A stretch of 64,000 nucleotides of DNA from Gemmatimonadaceae bacterium (GCA_011525845.1 WYBP01000008.1:124001-188000), one strand, 5' to 3'; positions 2,375 through 10,108 are shown, numbered from the stretch's first letter. Numbers and translations: made by a program. The notes: generated from the letters alone by a model not told the origin.

Positions 2375-4098
2375 GTCGCCGCGGGCTGCGCGCGGTCGCG
2401 GCGCTCGTCGCCGCGGCCGTGACGGGGGCGACCCTGGGCGGCGCGCCCCTCCGTCCGCTCGCCGCGCAGGAGGCGCCCGGCACCGCCGCGATCGTCTCGC
2501 GCGCGCTCGAACACGAGTCGGCGGGCCGGAACCGCGAGGCGATCGACAGCTGGCGTGCGGCGCTCGCCTCGGGCGTGGTGATCCCGGCGGCGCTCGGCCT
2601 CGAGCGCGTCTTCTCCCTGCTCGCGCAGGAGGACTCGCTCCTCGTGATGTTCGACACGCTCGTGCCGCGCTACCCTCGGGAGCTGCAGCTGCGCGCGGCC
2701 CAGTTGCGCACGCTGATCACGCTCGGGATGAACACCCAGGCCCAGGTGGAGTTCGGCAAGTGGCGCGCGCTCGCCCCCACGGATGTCGCGCCCTACCGCG
2801 AGTACGCGCGCGTGCTGCTCTTCAACAACCGCGCGGCCGCCGCGGACACGGTGCTCCGCCTCGCGACCGAGACCCTCGGCAGCACGCGGGCCCTCGTGCT
2901 CGAGACCGCGCAGATGCGCTCGGCGCTCGGCCTCTGGAAGGACGCCGCCGAGTCCTGGCGGGAGGCGATGCGGGACGAGCCGTACTACGAATCCGCCGCG
3001 GTCTTCTCGCTCTCGCCCACGCCGCGCGACCTGCGCGACCTCGTGCGGCGGGAGCTCGGCGTGCCGGGCACCCCCCTCGGCGCGCTGCAGGCGCTCGCGC
3101 TCCTCGAAGTGCAGTGGGGCGCGCCGCGCGACGGATGGCGGGTGCTCTCGGCGCTCCCGCCCTCGGACACGGTCGTCGCCATCTGGCGGCAGTTCGCCGA
3201 CGAGGTGCAGCGGGTGCGCGCCTGGGCGGCGGCGCGCGATGCGCTGGGCGCGATCCACCAGGCGCGGCCCGACGGAGCGACCGCCGTGCGGGCCGCGGCG
3301 GCCGCGCTCGCGGCGGATGACCCCGTCGCCGGGCTCCGGCTCGCGCGCGAGGCCGCGGCGGCGCTCCCCGACTCGATCGCGCTCGCGGACGCGCTCCCGC
3401 TGGAGCTCGACGCGCTCGCCCGCCTGGGCCGCGCGAGCGAGGCCGTGCGGGTGCTCGCGAAGGCGCGCCCCGCGCTCGGCGCCGAGGGCGCGCGGCCGCT
3501 CGCGCGCCACATCGCGTGGGCCTGGATCCGCGCCGGGGACGTGGCGCGGGCGCGGGAGGCACTCAAGGACGCGCCGCTCGCGGCGGAGGACGCCGTCTCC
3601 GGATGGCTCGCGCTCTTCGACGGCGACCTCGACGGTGCGCGCGTCGCCCTGCGCAACTCCGAGAACCCGGGGCAGGACGTGATCTCCGCGCTCTCCCTGC
3701 TCAACCGCACGCGCGAGTCGCGCAGCGCGGCGATCGGCCAGGCCTTCCTCGCCCTCGCCAAGGGGGACTCCGTGCAGGCCGCCCAGCGTTTCGAGCGCGC
3801 CGCCGCCGACCTCGCGGACGCGGCCCCGCTGCTCCTCGCACTCGCGGCAAGGATCGAGACCGCGCGCCGGGACGAGGAGCGATCCCTCACGCTCTGGAAG
3901 CGCGTGGCCGCCGAGCATCCGGAGTCGCCGGAGGCCGCGGAGGCGGACCTCGAGTGGGCGCGCGGGCTGCGGCGGCGCGGGGACATCCCGGGTGCGCGGG
4001 AGCGCCTCGAACACCTTATCCTGACATATCCTTCGAGCGCGCTCGTTCCCCAGGCGCGCCGTGAACTCGACACCCTGCGCGTGGGCGCGGTCTCATGA
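2371..4098 (+). CDS. exported tetratricopeptide-repeat protein
   Basis: The 575-residue product has a cleavable signal peptide (SRRGLR, hydrophobic Ala/Val stretch, then PLAAQE) followed by helical repeats rich in Ala, Leu, Arg and Glu across its length, consistent with degenerate TPRs. The clearest TPR-like units are near the C-terminus (WKRVAAEHPESPEAAEADLEW and the repeat after it). GTG start, overlapping the upstream stop by 4 nt; its own stop overlaps the ATG of the next gene (ATGA). The tight three-gene arrangement suggests a periplasmic scaffold acting with the coiled-coil protein before it and the secreted protein after it. No enzymatic motif was seen. Confidence 0.7.
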   Translation: MSRRGLRAVAALVAAAVTGATLGGAPLRPLAAQEAPGTAAIVSRALEHESAGRNREAIDSWRAALASGVVIPAALGLERVFSLLAQEDSLLVMFDTLVPRYPRELQLRAAQLRTLITLGMNTQAQVEFGKWRALAPTDVAPYREYARVLLFNNRAAAADTVLRLATETLGSTRALVLETAQMRSALGLWKDAAESWREAMRDEPYYESAAVFSLSPTPRDLRDLVRRELGVPGTPLGALQALALLEVQWGAPRDGWRVLSALPPSDTVVAIWRQFADEVQRVRAWAAARDALGAIHQARPDGATAVRAAAAALAADDPVAGLRLAREAAAALPDSIALADALPLELDALARLGRASEAVRVLAKARPALGAEGARPLARHIAWAWIRAGDVARAREALKDAPLAAEDAVSGWLALFDGDLDGARVALRNSENPGQDVISALSLLNRTRESRSAAIGQAFLALAKGDSVQAAQRFERAAADLADAAPLLLALAARIETARRDEERSLTLWKRVAAEHPESPEAAEADLEWARGLRRRGDIPGARERLEHLILTYPSSALVPQARRELDTLRVGAVS

Positions 4099-5408
4099 GA
4101 GTCGTCCGGATCGACCCGAGGAAGCTGGCTCGCGGTGTCGCGCGCGCGTGCGCGATCGCCGCGCTCGCGGCCGCGTCGGCGGCGGCGCTCGCGCGTCCGG
4201 CGCATGCCCAGCACCTCCTCGTCCCGATGGACGACGCGCAGACCAACCACCTGAAGGCGTACGGCCTCACCTTCGGCGCGATCGGCGACGGCGCGCGCAG
4301 CGAGTGGCTGCTCAACTACCGCGGCGGGAGCTTCCTCCTCCCGGACCTCCCCGCGCTGCGGCGGCAGGCGGCACTCGCCGGGGTGAGCTTCGAGGCGGTG
4401 GACGGCGCACGGCTCGTCGCGCTGCGCCGCGAGATCGCCGAGGGGAACATGGACGCGGTGCCGCTCGAGAAGGCGCCGCGCATCGCCGTCTACACGCCAC
4501 CCGACGCGCCCCCCTGGGACGACGCGGTGACCCTCGCCCTCGTCTATGCGGGGATCAAGTACACCTCGATCTGGGACGACGACGTCCTCGACACGGACCT
4601 CTCGCAGTTCGACTGGATTCACCTGCACCACGAGGACTTCACGGGGCAGCAGAACAAGCTCTTCCTCGGCTTCCGCGACGCGCCCTGGTTCGTGCAGGCG
4701 CGCGAGCGCGACCTCGCCACCGCGCGCCGCCACCGCCTCGCGGACATCCCCGCACTTAAGAAGGCCGTGGCCGACCGGCTGCGGGGCTTCGTCGAGCGGG
4801 GCGGGTTCCTCTTCGCGATGTGCGGGGCCACCGAGACGCTCGAGCTCGCGATCGCCGGCAAGGATGTCGACATCGCCGGCCCGTACTCGGACGGCTCGGC
4901 GATGGACCCCGATGCGGACGCGAGGATGGACTGGTCACGCACCTTCGCCATGCAGGGCGCGCGCCTCGAGATGGCCGGCGGCGTGAATGCCATGAGCGAC
5001 ATCGACGGGCACCAGGTGAACGTCCCCTCGCGGCGGCAGCCGCTCGGCACCTTCACGCTCTTCGGCTTCTCGGCCAAGTTCGACCCCGTCGCCACGATGC
5101 TCGTGCAGGACCATCGCACGGTGATCCGCGACTACTACGGGGTGACGACCTCGTTCGCGCGGAAGGTGCTCAAGCCGGGCGTGACGATCCTCGCGCACGA
5201 GGAAGGAGCGCCCTGGGTGAAGTACATCCACGGCAGCTACGGCCGCGGGTCCTGGACCTACCTCGGCGGGCACGATCCCGAGGACCCGCAGCACAACATC
5301 GGTGCGCCGCCGACCGACCTCTCGCTCCATCCCAACTCGCCGGGGTACCGGCTGATCCTCAACAACGTCCTCTTCCCGGCCGCGAAGAAGAAGCCGCTGA
5401 AGACCTGA
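4095..5408 (+). CDS. secreted AsnB-annotated protein with glutamine-amidotransferase-like fold
   Basis: The 437-residue product begins with a signal peptide ending PAHAQ, followed by LLVPMDDAQTNHLKAYG, a motif typical of exported proteins that databases call 'asparagine synthetase B' in Bacteroidota. No asparagine synthetase ATP-binding domain is visible. The middle has FVERGGFLFAMCGATETLE, which resembles the Cys-containing nucleophile elbow of class I amidotransferase/ThuA-like folds, and the C-terminal half holds GRGSWTYLGGHDPEDPQH. Export plus the lack of a synthetase domain argue against real asparagine synthesis. It is the last member of the coupled DUF4175-TPR-AsnB-like set. True function unknown; the name should be treated as inherited annotation. 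Confidence 0.6.
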   Translation: MRVVRIDPRKLARGVARACAIAALAAASAAALARPAHAQHLLVPMDDAQTNHLKAYGLTFGAIGDGARSEWLLNYRGGSFLLPDLPALRRQAALAGVSFEAVDGARLVALRREIAEGNMDAVPLEKAPRIAVYTPPDAPPWDDAVTLALVYAGIKYTSIWDDDVLDTDLSQFDWIHLHHEDFTGQQNKLFLGFRDAPWFVQARERDLATARRHRLADIPALKKAVADRLRGFVERGGFLFAMCGATETLELAIAGKDVDIAGPYSDGSAMDPDADARMDWSRTFAMQGARLEMAGGVNAMSDIDGHQVNVPSRRQPLGTFTLFGFSAKFDPVATMLVQDHRTVIRDYYGVTTSFARKVLKPGVTILAHEEGAPWVKYIHGSYGRGSWTYLGGHDPEDPQHNIGAPPTDLSLHPNSPGYRLILNNVLFPAAKKKPLKT

Positions 5409-7987
5409 TGGCGGGTCGCGGCGCGCCACCGGCGGGCGAGGCCGCGGCGGACGCGCGGCGCGCGCCGAGCGCCCGCGACCCGCACGGGGAGACCTCACGG
5501 ATCGCGAGCGGCGCGGCGGCCGCGATCCGCTCCGCCATCCGGCTCGCCGGGGGCCGCGAGGTCTGCTTCGTCTGCACTTCGGACGCCGAGGGGGTGGTGC
5601 AGACCGCCCGTGTCGCCGCGCGCGGCGACGTGCGGAGCGTGCTCGCGCTGCCCGGGTTCGCGAACCGCGGCGAGCTCCTGCTGCACAACCACCCCAGCGG
5701 ATGGCTCGAGCCCTCGGGCGCCGACCTCGAGGTGGCCGCGCGCCTCCACGACGACGGCATCGGCTTCGCGATCATCGACAACGAGGCCTCGCGGCTCTAC
5801 GTGGTGGTCGAGGTCCCGGCGCCGAAGCCGCGCGTGGAGCTCGCCCCCGGGGACGTCGCCGGCGTGCTCGGCCCCGGCGGGCCGGTGGCGCGGGAGCTCG
5901 GCCGGTACGAGGACCGCCCGAGCCAGCGCGAGATGGCACGGCTCATCGCCCAGCTCTACTCGCGCGGTGGCGTGGGGCTGATCGAGGCCGGCACGGGCGT
6001 CGGCAAGTCGCTCGGCTACCTCGTGCCCGCGCTGCGCTGGGCCGCCGAGAGCGGGGAGCGGACCGTGGTGAGCACGAACACCATCACGCTCCAGGAACAG
6101 CTCACGGGGAAGGACCTCCCCTTCCTGGAGACGGCGCTCACGGACCAGAAGGTCCGCTTCGCCCTGCTCAAGGGGTGGCGCAACTACCTCTGTCTCCAAC
6201 GGCTCGAACAGGCGCGGCTGCAGGCGCCGGCGCTCTTCGACGAGGGGGCCACCGACGAGCTCGCGATGCTCGAGGCGTGGGCCGAGCGCACCACGGATGG
6301 CTCGCTCGCCGACCTGCCGACGCCGCCGCGGCACGAGGTGTGGGACGAGGTGGCCGCCGAGGGGGACCTCTGCACGCGGCTCCGGTGCCCGCACTTCGAC
6401 GTTTGCTTCGTGTTCAAGGCGCGCCGCTACGCGGCGCAGGCCGACGTGGTGGTGGTGAACCACCATCTCCTCATGGCGGACGTCGCCGTGCGCCGCGCCT
6501 CGCAGCGCTGGGACGAGGCGGCCGTGCTCCCGGCGTACAAGCGCCTGATCGTGGACGAGGGGCACCACCTCGAGGACGCCGCGGCGGCCCACCTCGGGCA
6601 GAGCGTCTCGCGGCGGGGGCTCGAGCGGCTCTTCGCGCGGCTCGAACGCCGTGGCAAGGGACTCCTCCCGGCGCTGGAGCGCGCGCTCGGGCGCAGCACC
6701 GACCTCCTCAGCGTGGCGAGCCTCGACCTGGTGCAGGCGCGGCTCGTACCGGCGCTCGCGGCCGCACGCGAGAAGAGCGCGCTCCTCTGCGACCTGCTCA
6801 CGTCGTGGGTCGGCGCGCAGCGGGAGCACCAGGTGCGGCTCACCGAGAGCTTCGACGACGACCCGATCTGGCGCGCCGGACTCGGCGCCGCACTCGACGA
6901 CCTGCTCGCCGAGGTGGAGCTGCTCAGCGACGGCCTGCGGATGGTGCGCGAGCGCCTGGAGACGGACGAGCGGCGCGCCGAGGAGCTCGCCCCGCTGCTC
7001 AACGAGGTGCGCGGCGTCGCGCGGAGGCTGCAGACCTCCGGGGAGGCGCTGCGGGCGGCACTCCGGCCGGCGAGCAGCGGGCCGCCGCGGGTGCGCTGGC
7101 TCGAGATGCGGGGCGGGGAGGGGAACGTGGGGGCCACCGCCGTCCCGCTCGACCTCGCGCCGGTGCTGCGCGAGGACCTCTTCCGGCGCGTGGAGACGGC
7201 GATCGTGACCAGCGCGACGCTCGCGGTCGGCGACGGATTCCAGTTCATGACGCAGCGGCTGGGACTCGATGACGAGGCGCTCGAGCCGATCACGGCATCC
7301 CTCGCCTCGCCGTTCGACTACTCGCGGCAGGCGATGCTGGCGATCCCGAGCGACTTCCCCGCGCCGAACGCGGACGGCGCGGGGCACCTCCGCCGCACGC
7401 TGGAGGCCGCGGAGGACCTCGTGACCTTCGCGGGAGGCGGCGTGTTCTGCCTCTTCACGAGTCACCGCGACGTGAAGGAGGCCGCGCGCACCCTGCGTGA
7501 GAAGGGGATCGCCGGCCGGCACCTGCTGCTGGTGCACGGCGAGGCGCCGCGGGACGACCTCCTCCGCCGCTTCCGCGACCACGGAGATGCCGTGCTGATC
7601 GGCACGGCGAGCTTCTGGGAGGGCGTGGACGTGCCCGGGCGTGCGCTCCGCGGGCTGCTGCTCGCGAAGATCCCCTTCCGCGTTCCCTCGGAGCCGATCA
7701 CGGCGGCGCACTGCGAGGCGCTGGAGGCGGAGGGGAAGGACGCGTTCCGCGAGTACATGATCCCGCACGCCGCGCTGCGCCTCAAGCAGGGATTCGGTCG
7801 CCTGATCCGCACCGCCACCGACCGCGGCGCCGTGGTGATCTGCGACCCGCGCGTGGTAACGAAGTCCTACGGGCGGCGTCTGATCGAGGGACTCCCCCCG
7901 GCGGCGCGGATCCAGGGGCCCTGGGTGATGCTGCGGGACGAGCTCGCGGCGTTCTACCGGCAGACCGATTCCACCCTGACGGGGTAG
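5408..7987 (+). CDS. dinG: JAB/JAMM domain-DinG family Fe-S ATP-dependent helicase fusion
   Basis: The 859-residue protein combines two modules. Residues about 45-135 carry a RadC-like JAB/MPN domain with an intact metal-binding signature H93-N-H95-x7-S103-x2-D106 (HNHPSGWLEPSGAD), with E51 as a candidate catalytic Glu. From about residue 165 it is an XPD/DinG superfamily-2 helicase: Walker A GTGVGKS (195-201), four Fe-S cysteines (C262, C322, C327, C333), a DEGH box (383-386), and the C-terminal motifs SFWEGVDVPG and QGFGRLIR. DinG helicases unwind 5'-tailed DNA, D-loops and R-loops. ATG 5408 overlaps the preceding stop by one base; the frame stays open upstream into another gene, but nothing supports an earlier start. 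The helicase call is very safe; the role of the JAMM domain is open. Confidence 0.93.
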   Translation: MAGRGAPPAGEAAADARRAPSARDPHGETSRIASGAAAAIRSAIRLAGGREVCFVCTSDAEGVVQTARVAARGDVRSVLALPGFANRGELLLHNHPSGWLEPSGADLEVAARLHDDGIGFAIIDNEASRLYVVVEVPAPKPRVELAPGDVAGVLGPGGPVARELGRYEDRPSQREMARLIAQLYSRGGVGLIEAGTGVGKSLGYLVPALRWAAESGERTVVSTNTITLQEQLTGKDLPFLETALTDQKVRFALLKGWRNYLCLQRLEQARLQAPALFDEGATDELAMLEAWAERTTDGSLADLPTPPRHEVWDEVAAEGDLCTRLRCPHFDVCFVFKARRYAAQADVVVVNHHLLMADVAVRRASQRWDEAAVLPAYKRLIVDEGHHLEDAAAAHLGQSVSRRGLERLFARLERRGKGLLPALERALGRSTDLLSVASLDLVQARLVPALAAAREKSALLCDLLTSWVGAQREHQVRLTESFDDDPIWRAGLGAALDDLLAEVELLSDGLRMVRERLETDERRAEELAPLLNEVRGVARRLQTSGEALRAALRPASSGPPRVRWLEMRGGEGNVGATAVPLDLAPVLREDLFRRVETAIVTSATLAVGDGFQFMTQRLGLDDEALEPITASLASPFDYSRQAMLAIPSDFPAPNADGAGHLRRTLEAAEDLVTFAGGGVFCLFTSHRDVKEAARTLREKGIAGRHLLLVHGEAPRDDLLRRFRDHGDAVLIGTASFWEGVDVPGRALRGLLLAKIPFRVPSEPITAAHCEALEAEGKDAFREYMIPHAALRLKQGFGRLIRTATDRGAVVICDPRVVTKSYGRRLIEGLPPAARIQGPWVMLRDELAAFYRQTDSTLTG

Positions 7988-8611: not shown

Positions 8612-9483
8612 CGCCACGGCACCGCTGGCGCCTGCAGCCGACGGACCGCGCAGACCCGCGGGCCTCGGTCGCGGCGTTCGCGCTCCAGCTCACGCTGATC
8701 ATCCTGATCGTGCCGACGCTCCTCGTCCCGATCGCGTTCGATTTCCTGCGCGACGATGCGGGGCGCGCGGTGACGCCCGAGAAGATCAGCTTCATGGTGG
8801 CGGTCCCCTCGGGCCCGACGACGCAGGAGGCGCCGAAGGCGGGGGGTGACGGACGGGCAGCGTCCGAGGATCCGACGCCTGCGGCGCCGATCGTCGCACC
8901 CACGGCGGTGCCGAGCTCGGTGCCGGCGGCGCCCGCGGGCCCGCCGCGCGCGGACCCGGGCGGCGTCGGCCCGCTCGTCGGCGGGGGTGGCCCCACGCTC
9001 GGCATCCGGCCCTCCTTCAACGACCGGCGGCTCTGGGCCTCCCCCTCGGACATCGTGCTCGCGCCCGACCTCCCGATGACGCGCGCGGACTCGCTCCGCT
9101 CGGTGCTCCAGGCGACCGCCGAGGCCTATGTGGACTCGATGGTGCGCGCGAACCCGCAGGGACGCCGTCCCGGCGACTGGACCTTCGAGCGCGGCGGGAA
9201 GAAGTACGGCATCGACCCGATGTTCATCCGGCTCGGCGACTTCTCGATCCCGACGGCGCTGCTCGCGCTGCTCCCGATGAACGTGCAGGCGAACCCCGTC
9301 GCGCAGGAGCGCGCCCTGCGCCTCACCTCGATGCGCAACGAGATCATCGAGCAGGCGGAGCGGAGGGCGCGCGACGACGACTTCTACGCGGCGGTGAAGG
9401 CGCTCCGCGAGCGGAAGGAGAAGGAGCGGCGCGAGGCGGCGGAGGAGAAGAAGGCCGAGGCCGTCATCCCGCCGCGTCCGTAG
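8608..9483 (+). CDS. single-pass membrane protein with Pro/Ala-rich linker, unknown function
   Basis: The 291-residue product starts at GTG 8608, coupled to the upstream stop (GTGA); an ATG at 8572 in frame would force a longer overlap. It has a short cytoplasmic N-terminus, one transmembrane helix (about residues 22-46, FALQLTLIILIVPTLLVPIA), a Pro/Ala/Gly-rich linker (about 65-130), then a periplasmic region with FERGGKKYGIDPMFIRLGDF and a highly charged Lys/Glu tail (RKEKERREAAEEKKAE). The layout (anchor, Pro-rich spacer, outer domain) recalls TonB-like or energy-transducing proteins, but no family is recognised. The last 20 nt overlap the convergent lexA-like gene. Confidence 0.55.
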   Translation: MTPRHRWRLQPTDRADPRASVAAFALQLTLIILIVPTLLVPIAFDFLRDDAGRAVTPEKISFMVAVPSGPTTQEAPKAGGDGRAASEDPTPAAPIVAPTAVPSSVPAAPAGPPRADPGGVGPLVGGGGPTLGIRPSFNDRRLWASPSDIVLAPDLPMTRADSLRSVLQATAEAYVDSMVRANPQGRRPGDWTFERGGKKYGIDPMFIRLGDFSIPTALLALLPMNVQANPVAQERALRLTSMRNEIIEQAERRARDDDFYAAVKALRERKEKERREAAEEKKAEAVIPPRP

Positions 9484-10108
9484 CGTCCGCGTCGCGCATC
9501 CCGCCGGGTGCGCGGATCACGCCGGCGAGCGGCCCCAGGATCTCGAAGTCGTCGGTCGGCCCCACCTCGATGTCCTCCACGCCGGGCGCCGGGGCGCGCA
9601 GCACGATCGTCGCGCCGCGGCGCTCGAGCGCGCGGACCAGCACCGCGAAGCCGATCCGCGCCACCACCGGCGCCTCGTCGCGTGCGCGGGCGCTCGGGTG
9701 CACGAGCAGCAGGTCCCCCTCGAGGATCCCGTGGGCCGGCGCATCCTCGATGAGCGCGCGGATGAGGTAGACGTCGTCCCCCGGCAGGAGCGTGCGGTCC
9801 AGCGTCAGGTGCTCCTCCACCACGAAGCCGCCCTCAGGGCCGGGACGCACCACGGGTACGGGCTGCGTGCCGCTCCCGCCCGCGAACCCCTCGATCACCA
9901 CTCCGCGCGACCGCCCGGGGGTCCGTCGGATGTACCCCTTCGCCTCGAGCGACCCGAGCAGGTCGGCGACCGTCTTGGTGGACGGGATCCGGAATTGCCG
10001 CGCGATCTCGCGCACGCTCGGCTGGAAGGTGTGTTCCGCGAGGAAGTCGATCAGGAAGCGCCAGAGCTTCCGCTCGACCGCGGTGAGGGGGGCGCGGGGG
10101 GCCTCCAC
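9464..10108 (-). CDS. LexA-like repressor lacking the autocleavage dyad
   Basis: The 214-residue protein aligns by eye with LexA along its whole length. Residues 8-70 form the winged-helix DNA-binding domain (PSVREIARQFRIPSTKTVADLL, then LEAKGYIRRTPGRSRGV), and residues 90-200 the S24-like dimerisation domain (YLIRAL, GILEGDLLLVHPSA, PVVARIGFAVLVRAL, ILGPLAGVIR). The residues needed for self-cleavage are gone: the GMSM-type Ser position is D122 (AL-IED-AP), the catalytic Lys position is R159 (VLVRAL), and no Ala-Gly scissile pair is evident near residue 90. It therefore looks like a DNA-binding, dimerising regulator that RecA* cannot inactivate by the usual route. GTG start directly after the gltX stop, so it is co-transcribed with gltX. 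Confidence 0.85.
   Translation of the reverse strand: MEAPRAPLTAVERKLWRFLIDFLAEHTFQPSVREIARQFRIPSTKTVADLLGSLEAKGYIRRTPGRSRGVVIEGFAGGSGTQPVPVVRPGPEGGFVVEEHLTLDRTLLPGDDVYLIRALIEDAPAHGILEGDLLLVHPSARARDEAPVVARIGFAVLVRALERRGATIVLRAPAPGVEDIEVGPTDDFEILGPLAGVIRAPGGMRDADATDAAG

Follow-up and report, generated by a model that had tools for sequence, protein, structure and literature searches.

A gene in a 64,000-nucleotide stretch of Gemmatimonadaceae bacterium DNA (GCA_011525845.1, WYBP01000008.1:124001-188000; the window) encodes a single chain in which a RadC-like JAB/JAMM domain precedes a DinG-type helicase (5408..7987, + strand; 859 amino acids (aa) plus stop in one uninterrupted frame). The protein is a Gemmatimonadota member of the known RadC-like DinG subgroup. 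The present analysis adds to prior work the invariance of the putative metal ligands, the constraint on the domain carrying them and a natural series of intact, dead and deleted forms, which parallels the ExoDinG/pExoDinG pair. Sequence comparisons indicate that the JAB domain is an accessory module, dispensable for the helicase and normally under selection, with catalysis as the likeliest cause of that constraint. As to the reaction, a zinc-dependent hydrolysis of amide bonds in protein, acting in cis on whatever the helicase encounters along DNA, is tentatively preferred, with less than even confidence.

The JAB domain comprises residues 29-136 (5492..5815; this and all other features of the gene on the + strand). 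It is preceded by 28 unconserved residues predicted to be disordered (5408..5491; predicted local distance difference test (pLDDT) <50) and is connected by a linker with two predicted short helices (residues 137-165, 5816..5902) to the DinG/YoaA-type superfamily 2 (SF2) helicase (residues 166-859, 5903..7984). An earlier note on this sequence had described a complete JAMM signature, HxHx7SxxD, and an intact iron-sulphur (Fe-S) DinG helicase in one chain, which was borne out by translation, profile matches and models. As read in HNHPSGWLEPSGAD, H93, H95, S103 and D106 stand exactly where that note had placed them, and E51 lies within GGREVCF. The putative catalytic glutamate E51 (5558..5560) is located at the start of beta-1 and aligns with the E of EEF in the canonical RadC encoded elsewhere in the same genome. 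The putative zinc ligands are found in H93-N94-H95 (5684..5692), and the JAMM serine and putative third zinc ligand in S103..D106 (5714..5725).

The alignment of homologues revealed E51, H93, H95, S103 and D106 to be invariant in all 107 distinct sequences, about 80 of which had been fetched with a pattern overlapping part of the motif and the other 27 by whole-protein similarity. All five residues were kept in these 27 motif-independent homologues (27/27, with L008 scored by eye) and in 27/27 further active-type homologues retrieved by a search that started from an inactive domain. Because the five residues are invariant in 107/107 sequences, the signature is far beyond chance. The earlier note had raised the possibility that the motif might not be conserved among orthologues, and the alignment shows the opposite.

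The PF04002 (RadC-like JAB) profile matched the isolated N-terminal 141 aa with 27.7 bits (E 2.7e-6, cut-off 22.1), whereas the full-length protein scored 21.8 bits, slightly under the cut-off. In the NCBIfam RadC models, the domain reached 25.5 of 180 and 20.5 of 134 bits, far under the cut-offs. The hhalign comparison with the canonical RadC of the same genome gave 96.5%, with the HNHPSG..PS..D stretch and E51 aligned. The two proteins have the JAB fold in common, but the present domain is fused to a helicase and is shorter, with neither the N-terminal region of RadC nor the whole of the segment preceding the HxH strand. A second JAB-type protein (Prok-JAB, PF14464) is encoded in the genome at G000:C19:37627-37959 (L001); it has no close kinship to the DinG domain (hhalign 5.4%).

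Confident AlphaFold2 models were obtained for the isolated domain (mean pLDDT 87, predicted template modelling score (pTM) 0.79) and for the full protein (mean pLDDT 88, pTM 0.83). In the predicted topology, E51 opens beta-1, H93 and H95 are at the end of strand 90-94, and helix 104-115 begins with D106, so that these residues stand at the places expected in the N-terminal domain, the zinc site being judged by topology only. This layout resembles the one described for RadC-like DinG by Cheng 2025 (PMC11981726). The best Foldseek matches of the domain were CSN5, Rpn11, the C. tepidum RadC (2qlc) and AF2198, and VIA-align gave Z 8-10 to Citrobacter BubCD, Rpn11, CsRpn11, CSN5, BRCC36 and PfJAMM1. 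Among solved structures, the domain thus comes closest to JAMM/MPN+ proteins, many of which, such as Rpn11, CSN5, BRCC36, PfJAMM1 and CsRpn11, are active enzymes. With PfJAMM1, CsRpn11 and BRCC36, the fold and the ligand set are common (Z 8-9, root-mean-square deviation about 3 A), although these proteins act on ubiquitin(-like) tails, are unfused to a helicase and show an identity of only 12-21%. No nuclease appeared among the 50 fold matches listed for the domain, which carries no weight by itself.

The constraint on the domain was evaluated by comparing the two parts of the protein. Where the helicases of two intact proteins shared 30-70% identity, their JAB domains were the more similar part, by 6-9 points on average, an excess which narrowed at higher helicase identities. 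In genus g86 (small genome, 2.0 Mb; L149, L150 and L160 from genomes G132, G144 and G399, respectively), the domain is kept and still recognised by hhalign (97.9%), but E51, the HxH pair and D106 are all gone. R72 is conserved in this natural pseudo-enzyme and G73 is replaced by Ser. In the g86 lineage, the relation was reversed, with the JAB domain and helicase alike at 48 vs. 56%, 47 vs. 69% and 67 vs. 78%, the last two pairs comparing the helicase part on a short contig only. Since the relation reverses once the ligands are lost, catalysis is the likeliest cause of the constraint.

The active-type domain was found in approximately 295 of 395 Gemmatimonadota genomes (E <1e-20; hand count), and no DinG helicase was detected in some families of this phylum. 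The fusion also occurred in loci labelled Spirochaetota, Hydrogenedentota, Desulfuromonadales/Geobacteraceae and unclassified bacteria, so the confinement to Gemmatimonadota considered in the earlier note does not hold. In seven genomes (G048, G051, G052, G054, G130, G062 and G094), the JAB domain was deleted with the helicase retained; no JAB motif was present in the flanks of these helicases, and genome-wide searches returned only matches at the level of canonical RadC or none. Because several lineages keep the helicase without the JAB domain, the JAB step is probably accessory rather than part of unwinding. A degenerate RadC-like N-terminal domain with the histidines gone was identified in Fusobacterium vincentii (L188, NZ_CP084075.1; hhalign 86.8%, E 4e-6). 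The NZ_CP084075.1 record, of 2.1 Mb, is labelled a plasmid yet is chromosome-sized.

In a quick helicase tree, a single branch separated the RadC-like DinG helicases from the five helicases used as the outgroup (Shimodaira-Hasegawa-like approximate likelihood ratio test (SH-aLRT) 83), which is compatible with one old fusion. Nested within the group were at least three or four JAB losses and two inactivations; L188 forms a long branch of unsure exact placement. The JAB domain was therefore repeatedly deleted or inactivated later, while the helicase was kept.

The earlier note knew of no described function for the fusion; the architecture itself had already been reported. RadC-DinG/Rad3 fusions were mentioned by Iyer et al. 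2017 (PMC5512222), citing their 2011 paper, and the 'RadC-like DinG' subgroup was defined by Cheng 2025 (PMC11981726, section 3.8), who proposed an E/H/H/D zinc site. According to Cheng 2025, the model protein came from Desulfuromonas soudanensis, its nearest folds were JAMM metalloproteases, HolC was absent and the subgroup had had no research done on it; pseudo-domain and domain-deleted relatives do not figure in the section on RadC-like DinG. In the literature searched, the term was found in that paper only. The present protein shows no essential difference from the subgroup, sharing the N-terminal RadC-like domain, the E/H/H/D residues, the YoaA-like helicase with the C-terminal alpha7 helix and the HolC-less genome. 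ExoDinG and pExoDinG proteins (e.g., S. aureus DinG, 8zef) likewise have an N-terminal accessory domain in active and inactivated forms; there, however, it is an unrelated exonuclease domain, whereas the present one matches RadC/JAB only and has a complete metal signature. The link between RadC and DNA repair is disputed, and the literature is divided between a protease-like and a nucleic-acid-processing role (PMC11981726, PMC5512222).

In the tentatively preferred explanation, the JAB domain would bind zinc in a single-zinc hydrolase site and would hydrolyse a carbon-nitrogen (amide or isopeptide) bond, like characterised JAMM enzymes. The substrate would be a protein sitting on or attached to the strand tracked by the helicase, whose motor would deliver it to the JAB active site in cis, and the JAB step would serve as accessory clearance or processing. 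The g86 lineage supports catalysis as the selected trait, because E51, the HxH pair and D106 were lost together and the conservation of the domain then fell below that of the helicase. JAMM chemistry, a one-zinc, glutamate-assisted water attack, is better suited to amides than to phosphodiesters. The name metalloprotease, used for the domain in the earlier note, is nevertheless something that we infer rather than observe. A bolder form of this explanation seems improbable, namely a bacterial helicase-driven DNA-bound protease, in which the motor would pull protein-blocked DNA past a JAMM site cutting the obstructing protein, with later deletion of the cutting domain, or its conversion to a pseudo-enzyme, in several lineages. 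SPRTN plus a helicase is the two-part eukaryotic counterpart of such a one-chain protein clearance. Several points weigh against protein hydrolysis. To our knowledge, no activity has been assigned to any RadC-clade domain, and RadC appears from the sequence comparisons to be the nearest relative of the JAB domain. No genes for ubiquitin-like (Ubl), E1 or E2 proteins were recognised beside the fusion in the Gemmatimonadota, Spirochaetota, Desulfuromonadales and Hydrogenedentota loci, where several neighbours belong to no known family. The RadC clade is reported to be without the ubiquitin-tail groove, nucleic-acid processing being favoured by the authors (PMC5512222), and the place of the JAB domain is that of the nuclease in other DinG proteins (PMC11981726, PMC5512222).

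The last points lead to the possible, though doubtful, explanation that the JAB domain acts as a nuclease or as another nucleic-acid- or nucleotide-processing enzyme, which would trim or edit the unwound strand in place of the ExoDinG exonuclease. Besides the kinship to RadC, this could be argued from its location N-terminal to the helicase, like that of the nucleases in ExoDinG and EndoDinG, and from the further fusions of RadC domains to HhH and ArdC-N and the relationship of the JAB fold to the deaminase fold (PMC5512222, PMC11981726). However, the fold matches listed for the domain are MPN/JAMM proteins. The DALI search of Cheng 2025 yielded no nuclease (PMC11981726). Phosphodiester cleavage by a site with one zinc and one glutamate would also be unusual. 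A mainly structural or regulatory role, such as DNA grip, protein docking or dimerisation, with the metal site stabilising the fold, is rather unlikely. The retention of the domain without metal ligands in g86 and Fusobacterium, similar to the pseudo-exonuclease pExoDinG group, and the conserved R72 of g86 are consistent with it. On the other hand, a purely structural role would not require E51, and elsewhere all catalytic residues are invariant, including the non-ligands E51 and S103, with the constraint relaxing after their loss. A true deconjugase, which would strip repair proteins of a ubiquitin-like modifier where the DNA is being unwound, like BRCC36 in eukaryotes, is the least probable explanation and would be surprising. 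It has in its favour the fold and motif common to Rpn11, BRCC36 and PfJAMM1, but the missing groove and the lack of recognised Ubl/E1/E2 genes beside a gene whose neighbours vary by phylum argue against it.

RadC has been present in genome annotation for decades, and we know of no established activity for it. The proteins of this subgroup couple a RadC-type domain to a helicase whose kind is known, and the intact, catalytically lost and domain-less versions found in relatives constitute natural controls which make the function of the domain testable. Protein cutting, if true, would represent a new way of freeing bacterial DNA from protein blocks, and nucleic-acid cutting, if true, would be a pointer to the role of RadC.

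The helicase part matched Helicase_C_2 at 1.5e-42, and NCBIfam YoaA was its best-scoring family (564.5 bits), with the family cut-off of 680 not reached. It differs from YoaA of E. coli, the partner of HolC, in this lower score and in the additional JAB domain; moreover, HolC (PF04364) had no match in the own genome (99.8% complete), while control genomes were positive. No other DinG-type helicase was detected in the genome. The best Foldseek match of the full protein was E. coli DinG with single-stranded DNA (6fwr, E 7.6e-42), and a C-terminal helix (839-858) was present in the model. By analogy with DinG, unwinding would proceed in the 5'-3' direction. Translation and homologue alignment placed the Walker A motif AGTGVGKS at residues 194-201 (5987..6010) and the DEGH box at 383-386 (6554..6565); the alignment also located the SAT motif at 602-604 (7211..7219) and motif VI, QGFGRLIR, at 794-801 (7787..7810). 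The Fe-S cysteines are C262 (6191..6193) and C322, C327 and C333 (6371..6406). C262 is replaced by Ser throughout one Gemmatimonadota branch of 24 loci (e.g., L103, L104, L106-L110, L112 and L114-L123), in which the three remaining cysteines are invariant; single-residue variants of this type are noted in general by Cheng 2025 (PMC11981726).

Some candidate occurrences and contexts of the fusion were rejected. The membership of Acidobacteriota by L136 (JAAXGQ010000014.1, labelled Vicinamibacteraceae) was set aside, as this locus has Gemmatimonadota neighbours, resembles L118 and is probably misbinned. Neither putative stand-alone JAB was accepted: in L102, a run of N joins the JAB domain to unrelated sequence, and the short open frame of G073 is located at a contig end. 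Among the rows listed for plasmids and phages, matches span the helicase only, save the L188 'plasmid' record, and PADLOC, used with regard to anti-phage defence, matched only the helicase (type IV DinG and similar) and not the JAB domain.

The ATG of the fusion gene shares bases with the stop codon of an upstream open reading frame (ORF) of 437 aa (4095..5408, + strand), which matches no Pfam or NCBIfam family. This ORF shows 57-86% identity across Gemmatimonadota and lies nearly always immediately upstream of the fusion. The order orf131-TPR-437 aa ORF-fusion-FAA hydrolase is widespread in Gemmatimonadota and was found in Gemmatimonadota-type loci only; none of these four neighbours was found beside the fusion in the loci of other phyla, where acyltransferase, RelA/SpoT-TPR, mannose-6-phosphate isomerase, GDSL lipase, integrase and other genes are located instead. 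With the conserved order confined in this way, gene context was dropped as a functional hint. In the window, a LexA repressor gene is encoded on the - strand (9464-10108), about 1.5 kb downstream of the fusion.

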